Assembly: GCA_904395815.1 (NCBI GenBank)
Contig: CAJFOC010000023.1
Location: forward strand, 1-64,000
Origin: an uncultured Holdemania sp.
GTDB lineage: Bacteria > Bacillota_I > Bacilli_A > Erysipelotrichales > Erysipelotrichaceae
Reading direction: 5' to 3'
DNA: 64,000 nucleotides
This document shows, one piece after another, positions 37,632 through 61,643 of this stretch. A program made the translations under genes and the position numbers. Each line of letters begins with the position of its first letter. Within the stretch, counting starts at the first letter, position 1. The notes beneath the pieces were generated by a model. That model ran no database searches and was not told the DNA's origin. It saw only the letters and a program-made list of their open reading frames with translations.

Positions 37632-37809
37632 TGAGAAAAGAAACTCCGCCAGGGATTGCGGAGTTTCCTTTCAGAAGAACGACTTCAGGGAATAAGCCAT
37701 CTTCTGCTTTGGGAAAGGCTGCAGGGAAACAGCCCTACCCTCATTATTTTTACATTAAGAAGAGGAAAAATGTTTTTCTTTATGAAACTAACTGCTGCCC
37801 TCCTTTCTG
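37632..37809 (-). ncRNA. Candidate sibling sRNA M0
   Basis: Minus-strand promoter ATCACT-AATTC-TTCACA-TGAAC-GCCATA-CAGCT-GCCACA-(9 nt)-TAAACT (37816-37869); CU-rich ATTTTTCCTCTTCTTAATG; UUCCCUG repeats; terminator AAACTCCGC-AATCCCTG-GCGGAGTTT. Confidence 0.65.
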
Positions 37810-37830
37810 GCTCTTAGTTTAAAAAAAGGA

Positions 37831-37869
37831 TGTGGCAGCTGTATGGCGTTCATGTGAAGAATTAGTGAT
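37831..37869 (-). promoter_or_regulatory. 11-bp direct-repeat array (OmpR/PhoB-type) upstream of M0
   Basis: Four boxes at exact 11-bp spacing, 9 nt from -10 TAAACT. Confidence 0.65.
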
Positions 37870-37889
37870 AATTCACTTCTTTTTTTGAC

Positions 37890-38055
37890 GCCAAGAAAAA
37901 ACCTGTCCAGGGGAGGGACAGGTTTTCTGACTCCGGGAGGGGAAACCCTTCGTCAATCATTATTCATAAGTTAATAAGAGGGGAAAACTTGTTTTAAGGG
38001 ATGTATCTTTCAACAGATTTCAGATCGTTTCTCTTTGATGCCTCCTTCCTTGTAT
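37890..38055 (-). ncRNA. Candidate sibling sRNA M1
   Basis: Promoter TTCACG-CACTG-TTCACC-TGCTT-CCGATA-CTCAT-CCCATA-(9 nt)-TATACT (38062-38115); CU-rich TTTTCCCCTCTTATTAA; terminator AAACCTGTCC-CTCCCCT-GGACAGGTTTTTT. Confidence 0.7.
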
Positions 38056-38076
38056 GGCATTAGTATACGAAAACAT

Positions 38077-38115
38077 TATGGGATGAGTATCGGAAGCAGG
38101 TGAACAGTGCGTGAA
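38077..38115 (-). promoter_or_regulatory. 11-bp direct-repeat array upstream of M1
   Basis: Four boxes, 11-bp period, further TTCAK repeats upstream (38116-38145). Confidence 0.7.
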
Positions 38116-38152
38116 CTTCCTGAAGAACTTCTGAAGAAGTGATGAACAAACG

Positions 38153-38689
38153 TTAAAGAGCGGATTGTTCCTTGTTTCTGCGCCATTGCAGCGCCGCCTG
38201 TTCCAGTTTTCTGACCAGATCATCCTTGCCGTCACAATAGCTTTCGATATCCCAGGGAAACTGCTGTGCCAGCTGCCGCTTCAGCCGGCCGTAGACCGCC
38301 GCGTCCTGCGGATGAGCACGCAGATAATCCCTCAGCGCCAGATGACGTTCGATCTGTTCATCAGCTCCCTGTTCAAAGATGTGCAGCTGATGAGTCCGCT
38401 CATCGCCCCCTTTTCGCAGATAGCGGCGCCCGGCAATGCCGAATTCCCCCAACACCTCATAGCCGATTGCTTCAAATGCCTTTTTCTGTGCGTCGACCCG
38501 CGCCAGACTGACGACGACCGGCATGATGTCGATCACCGGTTTGGCGCACAGCCCCACCACCGCCGTGCTGCCGATATGATGAATGGCGACGCAGTTATCC
38601 CGCAGAATAGCTCGAATCTGTTCTGCCTCCTGCCGGTAAAGCTGCGGCCACAGCGGATTGTATTCCGTCACGATCACATGCTGAGCCAT
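38153..38689 (-). CDS. GrpB family (UPF0157) protein
   Basis: VIVTEYNPLWPQLYRQEAEQIRAIL...IHHIGSTAVVGLCAKPVIDIMPVV. Confidence 0.92.
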   Translation of the reverse strand: MAQHVIVTEYNPLWPQLYRQEAEQIRAILRDNCVAIHHIGSTAVVGLCAKPVIDIMPVVVSLARVDAQKKAFEAIGYEVLGEFGIAGRRYLRKGGDERTHQLHIFEQGADEQIERHLALRDYLRAHPQDAAVYGRLKRQLAQQFPWDIESYCDGKDDLVRKLEQAALQWRRNKEQSAL

Positions 38690-39134
38690 CGGATCTTCCT
38701 CCTTCCTTTTCGTTTTGCGGCCAGCGCATTGTCAGCTCTTTCATCCCGCTGTCCTTTTCGACGCTTTGCCGCACGGTGACAAACCCTTCCCGACGGTAAA
38801 AGGCCACCGCTTTCTCGTTTCGCCTGTAAACGCTCAAAGAGAGCGTCGGATGCCGCCGTTTCGCCTCGTCCAGCAAGGCTTTGCCGATGCCGGCGCAGCG
38901 GTTCTGCCGCCGCACAAAAAGCCCCGCTACCCATTCCCCCTGCAATCCGATAAACCCGCAGATCTGATCCCCTTCTGTCGCCACGATCACTTCCGCCTGC
39001 ATCAGCTGCTGCCGTACCGCCGCCTGCTGCTTTTTCCACCACGACGCGCGGATAAAATCATGGGCATCCAGATTGGCGCTCAGCCAGAGCTCGGATACTG
39101 CCTGCAAATCTTCCTTCTGAAAATCTCGCAGCAT
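38595..39134 (-). CDS. GNAT family N-acetyltransferase
   Basis: GLFVRRQNRCAGIGKALLDEAKRRHPTLSLSVYRRNEKAVAFYRREGFV; C-terminus overlaps GrpB N-terminus by about 95 nt. Confidence 0.85.
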   Translation of the reverse strand: MLRDFQKEDLQAVSELWLSANLDAHDFIRASWWKKQQAAVRQQLMQAEVIVATEGDQICGFIGLQGEWVAGLFVRRQNRCAGIGKALLDEAKRRHPTLSLSVYRRNEKAVAFYRREGFVTVRQSVEKDSGMKELTMRWPQNEKEGGRSDGSACDRDGIQSAVAAALPAGGRTDSSYSAG

Positions 39135-39192
39135 CTTTTCATCTCCCCTTGTCCTTACAGCATAACCGCTTTGTTTCCTTACGGCAAGCGAT

Positions 39193-39352
39193 GACAGAAA
39201 AAAACCGTCCTGCGGACGGTTTGCGCATTCCGAAGAAGGGGGCTTCGGAACGCTTTTTATGATAATAAAAGGTTAAGAGAGGGGAAATTGATTGTCTTCT
39301 TCGTAATCATCACATCGATTGTATCTGTCGCCTGCCGCATTCCTCCTTTCAT
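39193..39352 (-). ncRNA. Candidate sibling sRNA M2 (possible dual-function, encodes a 27-aa ORF)
   Basis: Promoter TTCACA...ACCATA-CTCTT-CCCATA-(9 nt)-TATAAT (39359-39403); CU-rich ATTTCCCCTCTCTTAA; hairpin GCGTTCCGAAG-CCCCCTT-CTTCGGAATGC; terminator AAACCGTCC-GCA-GGACGGTTTTTTC. Confidence 0.7.
39257..39340 (-). CDS. 27-aa small ORF within M2
   Basis: AAAGGAGGA-ATG...; MRQATDTIDVMITKKTINFPSLNLLLS. Confidence 0.4.
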   Translation of the reverse strand: MRQATDTIDVMITKKTINFPSLNLLLS

Positions 39353-39373
39353 GCTTTGATTATAGAAAACAAT

Positions 39374-39403
39374 TATGGGAAGAGTATGGTGCGGCCATGT
39401 GAA
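39374..39403 (-). promoter_or_regulatory. Direct-repeat array upstream of M2
   Basis: TTCACA/ACCATA/CCCATA boxes, 9 nt from TATAAT; one inter-box spacing is 13 instead of 11. Confidence 0.6.
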
Positions 39404-39431
39404 ATCTTGGCAGTGATCCTCAAATGCTGCC

Positions 39432-39586
39432 GGACAGAAAAAAACCGCATGAGGGAACAATGCGGTTCGCAGAAAGGAAGCGGGAATCTTCCTTTCATCA
39501 TGATCTTCAACAGGAAAGAACGGGTTGTTATAGAAAGGAAAATTGAAATGAAGAAATAGGTTAGCGTTTCGTTCTTTTCTGTTTAC
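39432..39586 (-). ncRNA. Candidate sibling sRNA M3
   Basis: Promoter TTCACC-AAAAC-TTCACA-GCTTT-TCCATC-GTTAT-CACACA-(9 nt)-TATAGT (39593-39646); CAATTTTCCTTTCTATAA; hairpin GAAAGGAAG-ATTCCCG-CTTCCTTTC; terminator AACCGCAT...ATGCGGTTTTTTTC. Confidence 0.68.
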
Positions 39587-39607
39587 GATATCACTATACC
39601 CGGATTT

Positions 39608-39646
39608 TGTGTGATAACGATGGAAAAGCTGTGAAGTTTTGGTGAA
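39608..39646 (-). promoter_or_regulatory. 11-bp direct-repeat array upstream of M3
   Basis: Four boxes at exact 11-bp spacing. Confidence 0.68.
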
Positions 39647-41663: not shown

Positions 41664-44201
41664 TCATTCCGCCTCTTCCCGCAATGCGCTGATGATTCGC
41701 TCACGCCGGCTTCGCACCGCGCTGAGCTGCTGGAACATCATCGTCATCAGGATCAGAACCAGCGCGATCAGACCCGTCAGAACTAACGGCAGTCTCACTG
41801 ACACTTCCCTGCCGTTAAGCAGGTTGTAACGGATCAGCTGGATCAGCGCCAGGCTGACAGGCACTCCCATCAACACCCCGCCTGCCCCGACAATCAGCCC
41901 TTCCAGACTCAGCATGCGCCGGATCTGCCGCTGATCCATCCCGACCGATCGCAGCATGGCCAGCTCGCGGCGGCGTAGCTGGGCGCCGGAAAAGAGCGTG
42001 TTGATCACATTGACCAGACAGATCAGAACAAGCAGCAGCACAAATCCCATCAGAAAAATCGCCACTATTGTTACCGACATCTGTTCATCACGAAGATTTT
42101 CAGCCGGACTGTAAAGGCTGAAACTGTAATTCAGATCTTCTCTGGCCAAGGTTCGGATCTGATCCAGCATCGTCTGCAGCTGACCTTCTCTGGCTTTGAG
42201 AATCAGCTGATCGGTATAACTGATCGAACCTTCCTCAGAAAAGATCAGCTGCTGCATCGCCGCAGCGGGAATGACCACCAGAATTCTGTCGCCGTACAGC
42301 GTTTCATAGCCGATCAATCCGCTGCCCTCCACCATCGCCGCCGGCCAAATCGAAAGGGGCGGACGATCTTGCGCAAACCGCAGCGTCAGCGTCTGCGGCA
42401 GTGAGGAAAAACAGGGCTGCGCCGGATCCGCTTCGTCATGGTGAGAATCCGAACAGCCGCCAAGCAGCAAGCCGCGCAGCTGTCCGTCGGCACTCAGCGA
42501 TGATTCGCTGATCCCGTTTTGCTGCAGCAGCTGTTGCCAGGAATGCTCATCCAGCGCCACCAGCGCCGCCGGCAGCGAAGATTGCCGGTTGGCGCCTTCC
42601 AGATCCAGCCCCGCGGTCTGTAGCTGCCCGTATACCTGGATCACCCGCTGTGCCTGTTGGACTGAATCCAGCTGCATGATACGCGCAAAACTGGGTTTTT
42701 CCGTTTCAATCGACCGGGAAGAATAATCACTCACCCAGGCGTCATAGCTTGCCTGCCGCGCCGAATTGTTCAAAGAGTTCATCAGCATGATCAGAAAGCT
42801 GCCCGCCGTGCTCAGCAACGTCAAACTGACGGCCAGCGACATCATCATCAACAGCGTCCGGCGGCGTCCTCGCTGCACATGATTCAGCGCCAGTTCCGCT
42901 TCCACTCCCCACAGACGCCCTGTCAGACTGCCCAGCTTCAGCTGGCATCGATTCAGCCGCAGATCATGCGGCTGACGAAGAACCTGCATCGGCATCATGC
43001 GAAAGGCATGGCGGGCCGGAAGCCAGCAAGCCAGAAGAATCATGATCAGTGAACATCCCGCTGTCACCATGACCGCCGGACCCGTGAGCACCGGCCGCAG
43101 CGGAATCTGCGGCAGAATCATCTCCATCGACTGCAGCATCGGGCTGACGGCCGACAACGTCACCGTCATGCCGCACCAGCCGCAAAACAAGCCCGGTGGT
43201 ATCGATAACAGCGCCATCATCAGCGCTTCCTGCACAACGCAGCCAAACCGCTGTCTGCCGGTAGCGCCGACGCTGGCCAGCAGACCGAACTGGCGGCTGC
43301 GCTGCGACAGCGACATCGCAAACGCGTTATAAATCAGAAATACCGCGCTGCCGATAATGATCAGCACAACCACCGCCGCCGCTATCGCGAACCTCATCCA
43401 GTATGAATTGTCCCAGAAAGCGCCGTGAAACTGCAAAACGTTGTCATTGATGGCAACCAGTTGCGAGCTCAGCGCCGGAAATGTCCGGGCCGAGGCGATG
43501 CTTTTGTCCCGCAGCGTCACACAGAAAAGACTGTCCTGTCCGGCTTGCCCCTGCCATGTCAGCGCCGTGTATCCCGGCGCCTGGCGTGGTTCCAGATCGG
43601 AGCGCTCCATCAATCCGACTACCGTGTACTGGACCGTCCTGCCATTGCGGATATCCTCTGGCGAAGCGCTGTCCAGAGGATCGTTCTGATTCAGCGTCTG
43701 CTCTGGCTGATCGCGGACTGTCCGCTCGCCCAGCTGCAGTGTGAGCGTCTGTCCCAATCGCAGCTGCAGGCCGCCGTTGTACAGGGCATGTTCGCTGACC
43801 ACCAGTTCATTTTCCTTTTCCGGAAAGCGGCCGGCCACCAGATGCAGGCCCAGACCGTGAAACGTCTTGTCATTGCCTGCCACGACATAAAGATAAGGTT
43901 TATATGCATTGCCGCTTTCCGGCAGCAGCGCATAGCCCAGTTCACTGACTTCAAAAGTGGCGGCGGTTTCAGGGCTGTCCGCGATTGCCTGCCGTTGTGT
44001 TTCATTGAGCTGCCGGTAGGCAAGATCCCAGCTGCCCGTTTCGTACACCGCCTTGCGCTGCAGATAATCCAGAAGCGAGGTGCCAAACATCATCACCGCT
44101 GTGATCATCGCTACCGCAATAACAATCCCCGCTGCGCTCAATATCGTCCGTTTGCGATGCGTTTGCAGCGAACGGACGGTATACCGGATCAGAATGTTCA
44201 T
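41664..44201 (-). CDS. FtsX-type ABC transporter permease
   Basis: 845 aa with two FtsX-like TM modules; overlaps the ATPase gene. Confidence 0.92.
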   Translation of the reverse strand: MNILIRYTVRSLQTHRKRTILSAAGIVIAVAMITAVMMFGTSLLDYLQRKAVYETGSWDLAYRQLNETQRQAIADSPETAATFEVSELGYALLPESGNAYKPYLYVVAGNDKTFHGLGLHLVAGRFPEKENELVVSEHALYNGGLQLRLGQTLTLQLGERTVRDQPEQTLNQNDPLDSASPEDIRNGRTVQYTVVGLMERSDLEPRQAPGYTALTWQGQAGQDSLFCVTLRDKSIASARTFPALSSQLVAINDNVLQFHGAFWDNSYWMRFAIAAAVVVLIIIGSAVFLIYNAFAMSLSQRSRQFGLLASVGATGRQRFGCVVQEALMMALLSIPPGLFCGWCGMTVTLSAVSPMLQSMEMILPQIPLRPVLTGPAVMVTAGCSLIMILLACWLPARHAFRMMPMQVLRQPHDLRLNRCQLKLGSLTGRLWGVEAELALNHVQRGRRRTLLMMMSLAVSLTLLSTAGSFLIMLMNSLNNSARQASYDAWVSDYSSRSIETEKPSFARIMQLDSVQQAQRVIQVYGQLQTAGLDLEGANRQSSLPAALVALDEHSWQQLLQQNGISESSLSADGQLRGLLLGGCSDSHHDEADPAQPCFSSLPQTLTLRFAQDRPPLSIWPAAMVEGSGLIGYETLYGDRILVVIPAAAMQQLIFSEEGSISYTDQLILKAREGQLQTMLDQIRTLAREDLNYSFSLYSPAENLRDEQMSVTIVAIFLMGFVLLLVLICLVNVINTLFSGAQLRRRELAMLRSVGMDQRQIRRMLSLEGLIVGAGGVLMGVPVSLALIQLIRYNLLNGREVSVRLPLVLTGLIALVLILMTMMFQQLSAVRSRRERIISALREEAE

Positions 44202-44881
44202 CGCCGCAGCACCTCGTCCTTGACGATCCGTCCATCCTCCAGCACCAGAATCCGATCCGCCTGCAGCGCAATGTTTTCATCATGCGTGATGACAATGCAC
44301 GTCTGATTGCGCTGCCGGTTGGCGCGTCTTAGCATCGTCATGACCTGTTGTGAATTGCGGCTGTCCAGATTGCCGGTCGGCTCGTCCGCCAGCAGAATCG
44401 CCGGCTGATGAATCAGCGCCCGGCCGATGGATACCCGCTGCTGCTGACCGCCGGAAAGCTGAGAAGGAAGCAGATTGCGCTGTTTCGTCAGTCCCAGCTG
44501 TTCCAATAACGCCTCCACCGTCGCCGGATCCGGGCGGCGGCCATCCAGCAGCAGCGGCAGCATGATGTTTTCCTGAACGGTCAATACCGGGATCAGGTTG
44601 TAAAACTGATAAATCAGCCCCACCTGACGGCGCCGGAACACCGCCAGCTGCGTCTCATTCAGCGAGGTGATCTCCGTCCCCTCCACAATCACCTGTCCCT
44701 GATCCGGTCTGTCCACGCCGCCCAGAATGTGCATCAGTGTCGATTTTCCGGATCCGGAAGGTCCGATGATGGCGATGAATTCTCCCCGCCGCACCTGGAA
44801 GCTGACATGATCCAGCGCTCTGACCGCCAGCGAACCATGACCATAGATCCTGCAGCACTGACTGACCCTGAGTACTTCCAT
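44198..44881 (-). CDS. ABC transporter ATP-binding protein (MacB/LolD-like)
   Basis: GPSGSGKSTLMHILGGVDRPDQG...LSGGQQQRVSIGRALIHQPAILLADEPTGNLDSRNS. Confidence 0.96.
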   Translation of the reverse strand: MEVLRVSQCCRIYGHGSLAVRALDHVSFQVRRGEFIAIIGPSGSGKSTLMHILGGVDRPDQGQVIVEGTEITSLNETQLAVFRRRQVGLIYQFYNLIPVLTVQENIMLPLLLDGRRPDPATVEALLEQLGLTKQRNLLPSQLSGGQQQRVSIGRALIHQPAILLADEPTGNLDSRNSQQVMTMLRRANRQRNQTCIVITHDENIALQADRILVLEDGRIVKDEVLRR

Positions 44882-44948
44882 CTTCCCGCGCTCCTTTCCT
44901 TTTTTCTATTCCGCATTGCCTCTCGTTGTTGTTTTTCGTAAGCAAGCC

Positions 44949-45947
44949 TCACACGATCTGACGGGGAAAACGCAGCTGAAAACAGCTGCCCTGCCCCAGC
45001 TGACTGACCACCCGCAGCATGCCGCCCTGACCGGTGATGATCTGATAGGACATCGCCAGACCGATGCCCACGCTGTCCGGCCGGGCATTGCGGCCGCGGT
45101 AAAAGCGCTCAAACAGATGCGGCAGATCCTGCGGATCGATCCCCTCACCATTGTCTTCAATCTCTATCTGATCCGCCAGCATCGTGCGCCGGCAGCGAAT
45201 CACAATCCGGCCGCCGCGTCCGGTATGCTCGGCACAGTTGCGCAGAATGTTGCCCAGCGCTTCTACCGTCCAGTTCTCATCAAGCATCAGCTCAAAATCA
45301 TCCGGACATTCCATGATCCATTCCACCCCGCTGCGAACCAGTTCCGCTTCCGCTTGCGACAGCGCCTTGCTGAGCAGGGAACGTACTTTCTGGGGCGAGG
45401 GGGAAAACTGTACCGCTCCGGCCTGCAGCCGGGCCATTTTCAGCAGCGACTGAATCAGCCATTGCATCCGGCTCAGCTGATTGCTGATCACGCGCAGAAA
45501 TTCACTGCGCTGCTGCGGATCCATCTGCGGCTGCTGCATCAGCTCCACCATCATCATCATCGAAGTCAGCGGCGTTTTCAGCTGATGGGAAATGTCGCTC
45601 AATGAATCGGAAAGAAACTGCTGGCTTTCCTGCAGCTGCTGCGCCGTCTCCCGCAGCTGCACCGTTACCTTGTAAATTTCGCTGTACAGAATGCTCAGTT
45701 CTCCTTCTTCAAACTGATCCATCTGCATGCGGTAATGCCCCTCCCGCACCCCGCGCATCTGATCGTTCAGCTGCCGCAGCCGCTGATATCGACGCAGTGT
45801 GAACAGGGTGAACCCGCTGAGAAGCAGAACCGCCTGCGCCACGCATACGACAAGCATTTCTCTGGAAGAGGCCGCGGCCAGCAGAAAAAAAGGAAGACAG
45901 GCCGCCAGGCCAAACAGCAGAAAACGCGCGATTTCCCGATTGCGCAT
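44949..45947 (-). CDS. Sensor histidine kinase
   Basis: DISHQLKTPLTSMMMMVELMQQ, EDNGEGIDPQDLPHLFERFYRG. Confidence 0.95.
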   Translation of the reverse strand: MRNREIARFLLFGLAACLPFFLLAAASSREMLVVCVAQAVLLLSGFTLFTLRRYQRLRQLNDQMRGVREGHYRMQMDQFEEGELSILYSEIYKVTVQLRETAQQLQESQQFLSDSLSDISHQLKTPLTSMMMMVELMQQPQMDPQQRSEFLRVISNQLSRMQWLIQSLLKMARLQAGAVQFSPSPQKVRSLLSKALSQAEAELVRSGVEWIMECPDDFELMLDENWTVEALGNILRNCAEHTGRGGRIVIRCRRTMLADQIEIEDNGEGIDPQDLPHLFERFYRGRNARPDSVGIGLAMSYQIITGQGGMLRVVSQLGQGSCFQLRFPRQIV

Positions 45948-45951
45948 AGGC

Positions 45952-46638
45952 TTAATCTCCCATCTTGTAACCCAGGCCCCGCACGGTCTTGATCAGCTGC
46001 GGCTGCGCCGGATCTTTTTCCAGTTTTTCACGCAGCCGTTTGATGTACACCGTCAGCGTGTTGTCGTTGACATACTCGCCACCCAGATCCCAGATCGCTT
46101 CAAACAGCTGATCCCGGGTCAGTACCTGATTGTGATGGGTCGCCAGCGTCAGCAACAGGCGGTATTCCATCCCGGTCAGAAAAATCTCTTCCGATCCGCG
46201 GAAAACCCGGGCTGCGATCGTGTTGATCGTCAGATCCTGAAAACGCAATACCGACTCCTTGCTGCTGCGGCCCATTCTTCGCAATACCGAATTGATCCGC
46301 GACAGCAGCTCGCGTACCCGAAACGGCTTGGTGATGTAGTCATCCGCCCCCAGATCCAGCCCCATGACGATGTTCACCTCATCGTCGCACGCCGTCAGAA
46401 AAATAATGGGAATCAGCTTCAGTCTCGAATCTTCCCGCATCCAGCGGCACAGATCATACCCGCTGCCATCCGGCAGCGTCACATCCAGAAGCACCAGATC
46501 CGGCGCCGACTGTTCGATCAGCGTCTGTCCCTGCCGGACTGTCGTCGCAGTCTGTACCTGATAGCCTTCCTGGGTCAGCGTGTACTGAAGTGCGGTCAGG
46601 ATCGCGCTGTCATCTTCAATGCAGTAAATATGCGTCAT
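45952..46638 (-). CDS. OmpR-family response regulator
   Basis: MTHIYCIEDDSAILTALQYTL...DLVLLDVTLPDGSGYDLC...winged-helix C-terminus. Confidence 0.96.
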   Translation of the reverse strand: MTHIYCIEDDSAILTALQYTLTQEGYQVQTATTVRQGQTLIEQSAPDLVLLDVTLPDGSGYDLCRWMREDSRLKLIPIIFLTACDDEVNIVMGLDLGADDYITKPFRVRELLSRINSVLRRMGRSSKESVLRFQDLTINTIAARVFRGSEEIFLTGMEYRLLLTLATHHNQVLTRDQLFEAIWDLGGEYVNDNTLTVYIKRLREKLEKDPAQPQLIKTVRGLGYKMGD

Positions 46639-61490: not shown

Positions 61491-61583
61491 AAGAAAAAAT
61501 AGAAACTGCTCATTCCGTTTCTATTTCTCCGCCGAATTTTTCGGCCTGGGGGGAGAAAGAAATGGATCAAATTTCTTTGATCG
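61491..61583 (-). ncRNA. Candidate sibling sRNA M4 (compact, about 93 nt)
   Basis: Promoter TTCATC-ATTTT-TTCACG-CCTTT-TCCATA-CAGAA-AACACA-(9 nt)-TACAAT (61590-61643). Hairpin GATCAAA-GAAA-TTTGATC; open CATTTCTTTCTCCCCCCA; hairpin GCCGAA-AAA-TTCGGC; terminator ATAGAAAC...GTTTCTATTTTTTC. Confidence 0.75.
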
Positions 61584-61604
61584 ATTCTGATTGTAGATCA
61601 TCGC

Positions 61605-61643
61605 TGTGTTTTCTGTATGGAAAAGGCGTGAAAAAATGATGAA
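61605..61643 (-). promoter_or_regulatory. 11-bp direct-repeat array upstream of M4
   Basis: Four boxes at exact 11-bp spacing, same 9-nt distance to -10 as M0, M1 and M3. Confidence 0.75.

Follow-up and report, generated by a model that had tools for sequence, protein, structure and literature searches.

Putative small RNA genes of Holdemania share TTCAC-type promoter repeats with htrA genes and a two-component system

Background

In streptococci, several related small RNAs (sRNAs) per genome are controlled by the OmpR-type response regulator CiaR. These csRNAs do without Hfq and are composed of a hairpin, a single-stranded region antisense to translation initiation regions and a terminator, while the CiaR sites preceding them are direct repeats of the type TTTAAG-N5-TTTAAG with an 11-bp period, lying some 10 nt before the -10 box (PMC3091779, PMC8186281). 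The LhrC1-5 RNAs of Listeria are controlled by LisR, an envelope stress regulator for which the paper defines no consensus site; four of the genes are clustered and one lies elsewhere, the copies are nearly identical and bind Hfq, and their redundant C/U motifs are distributed over a stem-loop, a single-stranded stretch and the loop of the terminator (PMC4132741). In Bacillus subtilis one two-component system, CssRS, acts on the htrA genes and on its own regulator operon through the CssR box TTTTCACA, and the account of this regulon does not mention sRNAs (PMC6749698). Two other described elements are the cre/blr tag of CreB/BlrA, of the TTCAC-N6-TTCAC type (PMC4689548), and STAB-SD, a Shine-Dalgarno sequence without start codon near the 5' end of the cry3A mRNA (PMC4113751).

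Here we analyse a stretch of 64,000 nucleotides (the window) from an uncultured Holdemania sp., whose genome is available as a draft of 2.02 Mb in 63 contigs. A preliminary description of the window had pointed out four sibling modules (M0 to M3) and a distant fifth (M4), and had proposed that they form a multicopy sRNA regulon under one OmpR/PhoB-family regulator. In a literature search we found no relevant publication on sRNAs for either Holdemania or Erysipelotrichaceae. For comparison we used the genomes of H. massiliensis AP2 (G001), H. filiformis DSM 12042 (G002) and Holdemania sp. Marseille-P2844 (G003).

Results and discussion

Promoter repeats of the five modules

All modules are read on the minus strand. 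The M0 promoter (37816-37869) consists of the hexamers ATCACT, TTCACA, GCCATA and GCCACA, followed after 9 nt by the -10 box TAAACT. The same arrangement, with an 11-bp period and 9 nt before the -10 box, is found for M1 (38062-38115; TTCACG, TTCACC, CCGATA, CCCATA; TATACT), M3 (39593-39646; TTCACC, TTCACA, TCCATC, CACACA; TATAGT) and M4 (61590-61643; TTCATC, TTCACG, TCCATA, AACACA; TACAAT). The promoters described for these four modules were all located at the stated positions, with 0-1 mismatch to the consensus; as small corrections, the first box of M0 is degenerate (ATCACT) and the third of M1 reads CCGATA. M2 (39359-39403) has the form TTCACA-N7-ACCATA-N5-CCCATA-N9-TATAAT, and its first step of 13 bp, already noted in the preliminary description, is retained in the Holdemania orthologues (L047 9312, L048 9568, L049 about 11426). 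None of these promoters has a -35 box, as expected where an activator takes its place.

Allowing up to 3 mismatches, the 4-box pattern occurs four times in the window and never in 100 dinucleotide shuffles, and the matches in the own genome are the same four 4-box sites, with one match for the reversed control pattern. A scan of the region with generic sigma-70 and terminator consensus sequences stayed at chance level and caught only the terminators of M0 and M2. Between M2 and M1 lie the genes of a GNAT acetyltransferase and a GrpB-domain protein (38153-39134, minus strand), for which we found no sign of membership in the regulon.

The three relatives each contain 6-7 matches to the 4-box pattern (reversed control, 0). 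Their cluster occupies the same site, flanked by a PfkB-type kinase gene on one side and an SDR/KduI pair on the other, and comprises six modules, with one extra M1-type copy elsewhere. A recognisable orthologue was found for each of M0, M1, M3 and the 13-bp-step M2, and the box/9-nt/-10 geometry is retained at these loci in all three species. M4 follows a pentapeptide-repeat gene in the own genome, in H. massiliensis and in sp. P2844.

Predicted RNAs of the cluster

The predicted M0 RNA (37633-37811, minus strand), whose 5' end we infer to lie about 5-7 nt after the -10 box, carries AAAGGAGG (37806-37799) near its 5' end without a start codon, and the C/U segment ATTTTTCCTCTTCTTAA (37771-37755). 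It folds into three hairpins with UCCCUG-type loops, the last of which is the terminator. In the predicted M1 RNA (37893-38057, minus strand) an AAGGAGG without start codon (38047-38041) and the segment TTTTCCCCTCTTATTAA (37987-37971) are followed by a hairpin with the loop UUUCCCCU (37954-37929) and a terminator with the loop UCCCUCCCC. Among the Holdemania copies the loop CUUCCCCU of this internal hairpin (37929-37954, minus strand) is invariant and the stem varies on both sides: three pairs show two-sided changes, and the covariation score is 0.279 versus 0.093 for shuffled alignments (0/500). The predicted M2 RNA (39195-39354, minus strand) has an AAGGAGG without start codon (39348-39342), AATTTCCCCTCTCTTAA, a hairpin with a CCCCCU loop and a terminator. 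The predicted M3 RNA (39435-39588, minus strand) lacks AGGAGG and contains AATTTTCCTTTCTATAA, a UUCCCG hairpin loop and UUCCCUC in the terminator loop. The -10 boxes and C/U segments had been quoted correctly, and folding agrees with the intrinsic terminators proposed earlier, since in every module the 3' end forms a stable hairpin with a run of T behind it.

The AAGGAGG of M0, M1, M2 and the B-type copies lies 8-17 nt from the expected RNA start and lacks a usable start codon; in several of the folded RNAs its predicted partner is the first C/U motif. An anti-start CAU or CAA stands beside the C/U motif in 5/5 modules of the own genome and is not retained in the relatives. A DNA search detected the M0-M3 types only within the genus, except for two short matches, both weak, in a different family of the order. 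An Rfam scan of the modules gave no match at gathering level, and a permissive scan only weak sub-threshold ones. The M1 terminator loop (37897-37933, minus strand) resembles the C-rich end of FsrA (22.8 bits against a gathering threshold of 80, E 0.088), a similarity that is probably convergent. From their sequence and folding, the modules look like non-coding RNAs whose C/U-rich anti-Shine-Dalgarno motifs are either unpaired or placed in the loops of hairpins, followed by a terminator.

A family of M4-type RNAs

The predicted M4 RNA (61491-61586, minus strand) folds into a 5' hairpin (GATCAAA/TTTGATC, 61582-61565), followed by the single-stranded segment CATTTCTTTCTCCCCCC (61564-61548; core CAUUUCUUUCUCCCCCC) and a terminator. 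It belongs to a family spread widely in Erysipelotrichaceae, with a 5' hairpin, UUUCUUUCCCYCC and a terminator; 25 more box-driven RNAs of Erysipelotrichaceae have TTTCTTTCCC-type cores with invariant columns. A C/U run follows the box match in 91% of 35 Erysipelotrichaceae cases, versus 10% of random stretches from the same loci. The hairpins and terminators vary in sequence and still fold, mostly with z of -3 to -6 in single-sequence folding. RNAalifold found no pairs in a MAFFT alignment of the family, because the stems differ in both length and sequence. Counted by hand, the combined M4 pattern was found in about 59 of the 70 genomes of genus g32, against about 13 for the reversed control, a family-wide count that has a visible chance background and is an underestimate, the motif TTTCTTTCC missing even the M4 of the own genome.

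Genus g63 (G074, G249, G251-G253) has M4-type RNA genes in tandem pairs about 145 bp apart, and G145 has five M4 pattern matches. Just after M4 (61478-61340, minus strand) a WalR/YycF-type box, TGTAAG-N5-TGTAAG, precedes the gene of a tiny single-pass membrane protein (MKKWLGILLAAVVVAGAVAVVQKRKEQE); H. massiliensis (L053 7155-) and sp. P2844 (L054 7012-) have retained the box together with a similar small protein.

The box at htrA and regulator genes

The 4-box form, 9 nt from a -10 box, is also found upstream of htrA1 in 4/4 Holdemania genomes, and a box with 9 nt and a -10 box stands directly upstream of htrA2 and of the regulator genes RR-A and RR-B, again in 4/4. RR-A (C52:54107-54772 in the own genome) is an OmpR-type response regulator and RR-B (C18:8929-9588) its paralogue; a histidine kinase gene follows each of them. 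The pattern of two boxes, 9 nt and a -10 box has 22 matches over the four genomes and none for the reversed control. Its other matches include an M1-type sRNA and a few more genes, such as those of a glycosyl hydrolase 9 lipoprotein and an ASST-like protein (two species). With a matrix from 21 sites, the sRNA and htrA sites score 33-52 bits and the 197 kb around the regulator genes yield at most 14 bits, a gap that is flattering as the scored sites also trained the matrix.

The regulators of this subfamily have the helices RTLDTHIKLLRK and RTVDTHIKMLRHNL. For most of them in the family, those of the own genome included, TTCACN-N5-TTCACN-N9-TANNNT lies upstream of the regulator's own gene. The box also precedes many htrA genes of the family, with HtrA downstream of it in G023, G033, Traorella and Lactimicrobium; in G013 it stands at the head of an htrA-regulator operon.

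The main new result is that the sRNA promoters most likely fall into one group with htrA and a two-component system under autoregulation, as judged from these promoter sequences. Since the box is common to the sRNAs, both htrA genes and RR-A/RR-B, the htrA-linked pair, with its TTCAC-N6-TTCAC site resembling the cre tag, is most likely the controller of the modules, rather than a Pho regulator. The multicopy sRNA set under an OmpR/PhoB-family regulator, proposed in the preliminary description, is supported by the conserved geometry, the htrA and regulator boxes and the conserved C/U-loop RNAs; the single regulator gives way to two paralogous candidates.

A BceRS/BceAB-like operon (41664-46638, minus strand), with an FtsX permease, ATPase, kinase and regulator, lies near the sRNA cluster, and a homologous regulator is found near the cluster in other Holdemania genomes too. 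The BceRS-like regulator (45952-46638) was considered as a controller, but its nearness to the cluster was not taken as evidence, since it is part of the FtsX-type transporter operon and its gene showed no box.

Comparison with described systems

The parallel with the csRNAs drawn earlier holds for the functional design. The modules are likewise multicopy, come from genomes without a detected Hfq and are preceded by OmpR-type direct repeats with an 11-bp period near the -10 box, and the order of 5' hairpin, unpaired anti-Shine-Dalgarno segment and terminator recurs in the M4 family, with an anti-start CAU in part of its members. The parallel does not extend to the sequences: the module box is of TTCAC type and fourfold, whereas the CiaR box NTTAAG-N5-TTTAAG is absent, as is the csRNA nonamer [A/C]UCCUAAA[A/C] (PMC3091779), TCCTAAA occurring in none of the modules. 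The regulator helix is TLDTHIKLLRKNL here and VVEVYVSKVRKKL in CiaR; among CssR, CiaR and LisR, the comparison with RR-A/RR-B covers the recognition helix of CiaR only. With LhrC the modules share the 4 + 1 layout, the presence of several C/U motifs each, in loops and terminator, and probably control by an envelope stress regulator, but they have diverged from each other, show no Rfam homology and come without a detected Hfq.

The TTCACA core is common to the module box and the CssR box, and, as in a regulon of the HtrA type for envelope or secretion stress, one site is shared by htrA and the regulator gene. The box is also of the cre/blr-tag type, and the 4-box scan reaches creD of Gram-negative bacteria among the matches listed; RR-A and RR-B, however, score 186-192 bits against an NCBIfam cut-off of 273 for CreB, and no creD is among the Holdemania matches. 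As in STAB-SD, the AAGGAGG of the modules, known here from its sequence and position, is start-less and near the 5' end, in a genus that possesses RNase J; the difference is that it is carried by a predicted sRNA, in which the first C/U motif is a possible internal pairing partner. As a whole, the set appears to be an independent counterpart to the streptococcal csRNAs and the Listeria LhrC RNAs. If so, an envelope-stress two-component system driving htrA together with sRNAs against ribosome-binding sites would have arisen, or been preserved, in a third lineage next to Streptococcus and Listeria, and this logic would occur in common gut bacteria with a site and RNA families of their own.

Alternative explanations

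The modules could form a phosphate-starvation regulon governed by PhoB through Pho boxes. The 11-bp spacing is of OmpR/PhoB type, and the best score of RR-A is against PhoB models, below their cut-off. An exact 4-box scan of 84,980 species returned, among the matches listed, many sRNA-like loci and HtrA genes of Erysipelotrichaceae and Lachnospiraceae, and in Gram-negative bacteria creD, PstS-like and Na/Pi cotransporter genes, the last two types in Planctomycetota and Elusimicrobia. Judged from these neighbourhoods, related regulators in other phyla put such boxes to other uses, and the box sequence alone therefore cannot name the regulator. Within the own genome, the candidate Pho box, located upstream of a PstS-like gene and beside an OmpR-type regulator, reads TTAACG-N5-TTAACA-N5-TTCATA-N5-TTAACA and scores 14 bits, versus 33-52 for the sRNA and htrA sites. 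The resemblance of the module boxes to PHO-box-type repeats, suggested in the preliminary description, is not borne out by this comparison, and membership in the Pho regulon was rejected for this genome: the Holdemania TTCAC sites sit at htrA and RR-A/RR-B. We regard this explanation as very unlikely.

Even less probable is that the modules encode small peptides or leader peptides. Three of them carry AAGGAGG close to the 5' end, and the C/U segment can be read as part of short ORFs, with 28 codons in M2 (ATG 2 nt after GGAGG) and 17 codons from a TTG in M1. The AAGGAGG of M0, M1 and their relatives nevertheless has no usable start codon, the indels between orthologues are not multiples of three, and conservation resides in loops and stems, not in codons. 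The RNAs could also bind mainly a protein or the ribosome, as a CsrB-like sponge or a 30S decoy, instead of mRNAs. Identical UCCCUG hairpin loops are repeated in the M0 types, and the start-less AAGGAGG is conserved in the M0-M2 types, as such a role would predict, but AAGGAGG is absent from M3 and M4, and the element common to all complements Shine-Dalgarno sequences, as in csRNAs and LhrC (PMC3091779, PMC4132741). We consider this role unlikely.

Proposed mechanism and targets

We consider it quite probable that M0-M4 encode small RNAs acting in trans within an envelope or secretion stress regulon. Phosphorylated RR-A, autoregulated, and/or RR-B would bind the conserved TTCAC-type repeats, which would stand in for a -35 box, and would activate htrA1, htrA2, its own gene and the sRNA genes. 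As suggested by sequence and folding, C/U-rich motifs of the RNAs would lie accessible in unpaired segments and in the loops of hairpins, ahead of an intrinsic terminator. These motifs may pair with the Shine-Dalgarno regions of mRNAs and block ribosome loading without Hfq, for which no family match was found in four Holdemania genomes (positive controls were detected). Synthesis of the targets, for which envelope or secreted proteins would fit, would then fall while HtrA clears the misfolded ones. Multiple copies, each with more than one motif, may raise the dosage and widen the range of targets. The conserved 5' AAGGAGG of M0, M1, M2 and related copies could bind 30S subunits and protect the RNA from RNase J in a STAB-SD-like manner, or else mask the first C/U motif; carried by sRNAs, a start-less Shine-Dalgarno sequence would represent a novel variation of 5' RNA protection.

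Target prediction on 583 predicted genes (0.74 Mb of the own genome) gave a weak hint: pairing with signal-peptide genes was slightly better for M1 and M3 only (p about 0.005 and 0.01, respectively, uncorrected, with controls equal in the top 3%), and that of M4 with such genes in this set was no better. CUUUUUCAUA, present in box-driven RNAs of Lachnospiraceae and Traorella, is the exact antisense of UAUGAAAAAG, the start of Met-Lys-Lys signal-peptide genes. Met-Lys-Lys being a common start of exported proteins, it is an attractive hypothesis that envelope stress would lead to repression of such proteins. More speculatively, a class of TTCAC-box stress sRNAs may have gone unnoticed in gut Firmicutes, with M4-type members in Erysipelotrichaceae, CUUUUUCAUA RNAs in Lachnospiraceae and Traorella stopping the translation of exported proteins while HtrA is induced, and some Holdemania RNAs using a start-less Shine-Dalgarno sequence as a 30S-bound cap or self-masking switch; we hold this wider proposal to be possible though somewhat doubtful. 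We found no description of an sRNA combining C/U motifs with such a cap or switch. The regulon would be small and testable, with two regulators, two htrA genes and five to eight sRNAs in each genome, and two of the species are in culture (H. filiformis DSM 12042 and H. massiliensis AP2).

Box-driven RNAs in other bacteria

In Lachnospiraceae genomes the 2-box pattern led to further sRNA loci but to no htrA or regulator gene. Box-driven RNAs with CUUUUUCAUA, a hairpin and CUCCUCC were observed in Lachnospiraceae (L245, L249, L292, L284, L285, L328, L333) and in Traorella (L332), and Lacrimispora amygdalina has two CUUUUUCAUA-type RNAs in tandem. In Fusibacter (L237, L241) a 4-box promoter stands ahead of a C-rich multi-motif RNA with repeated ACCCCAAA.
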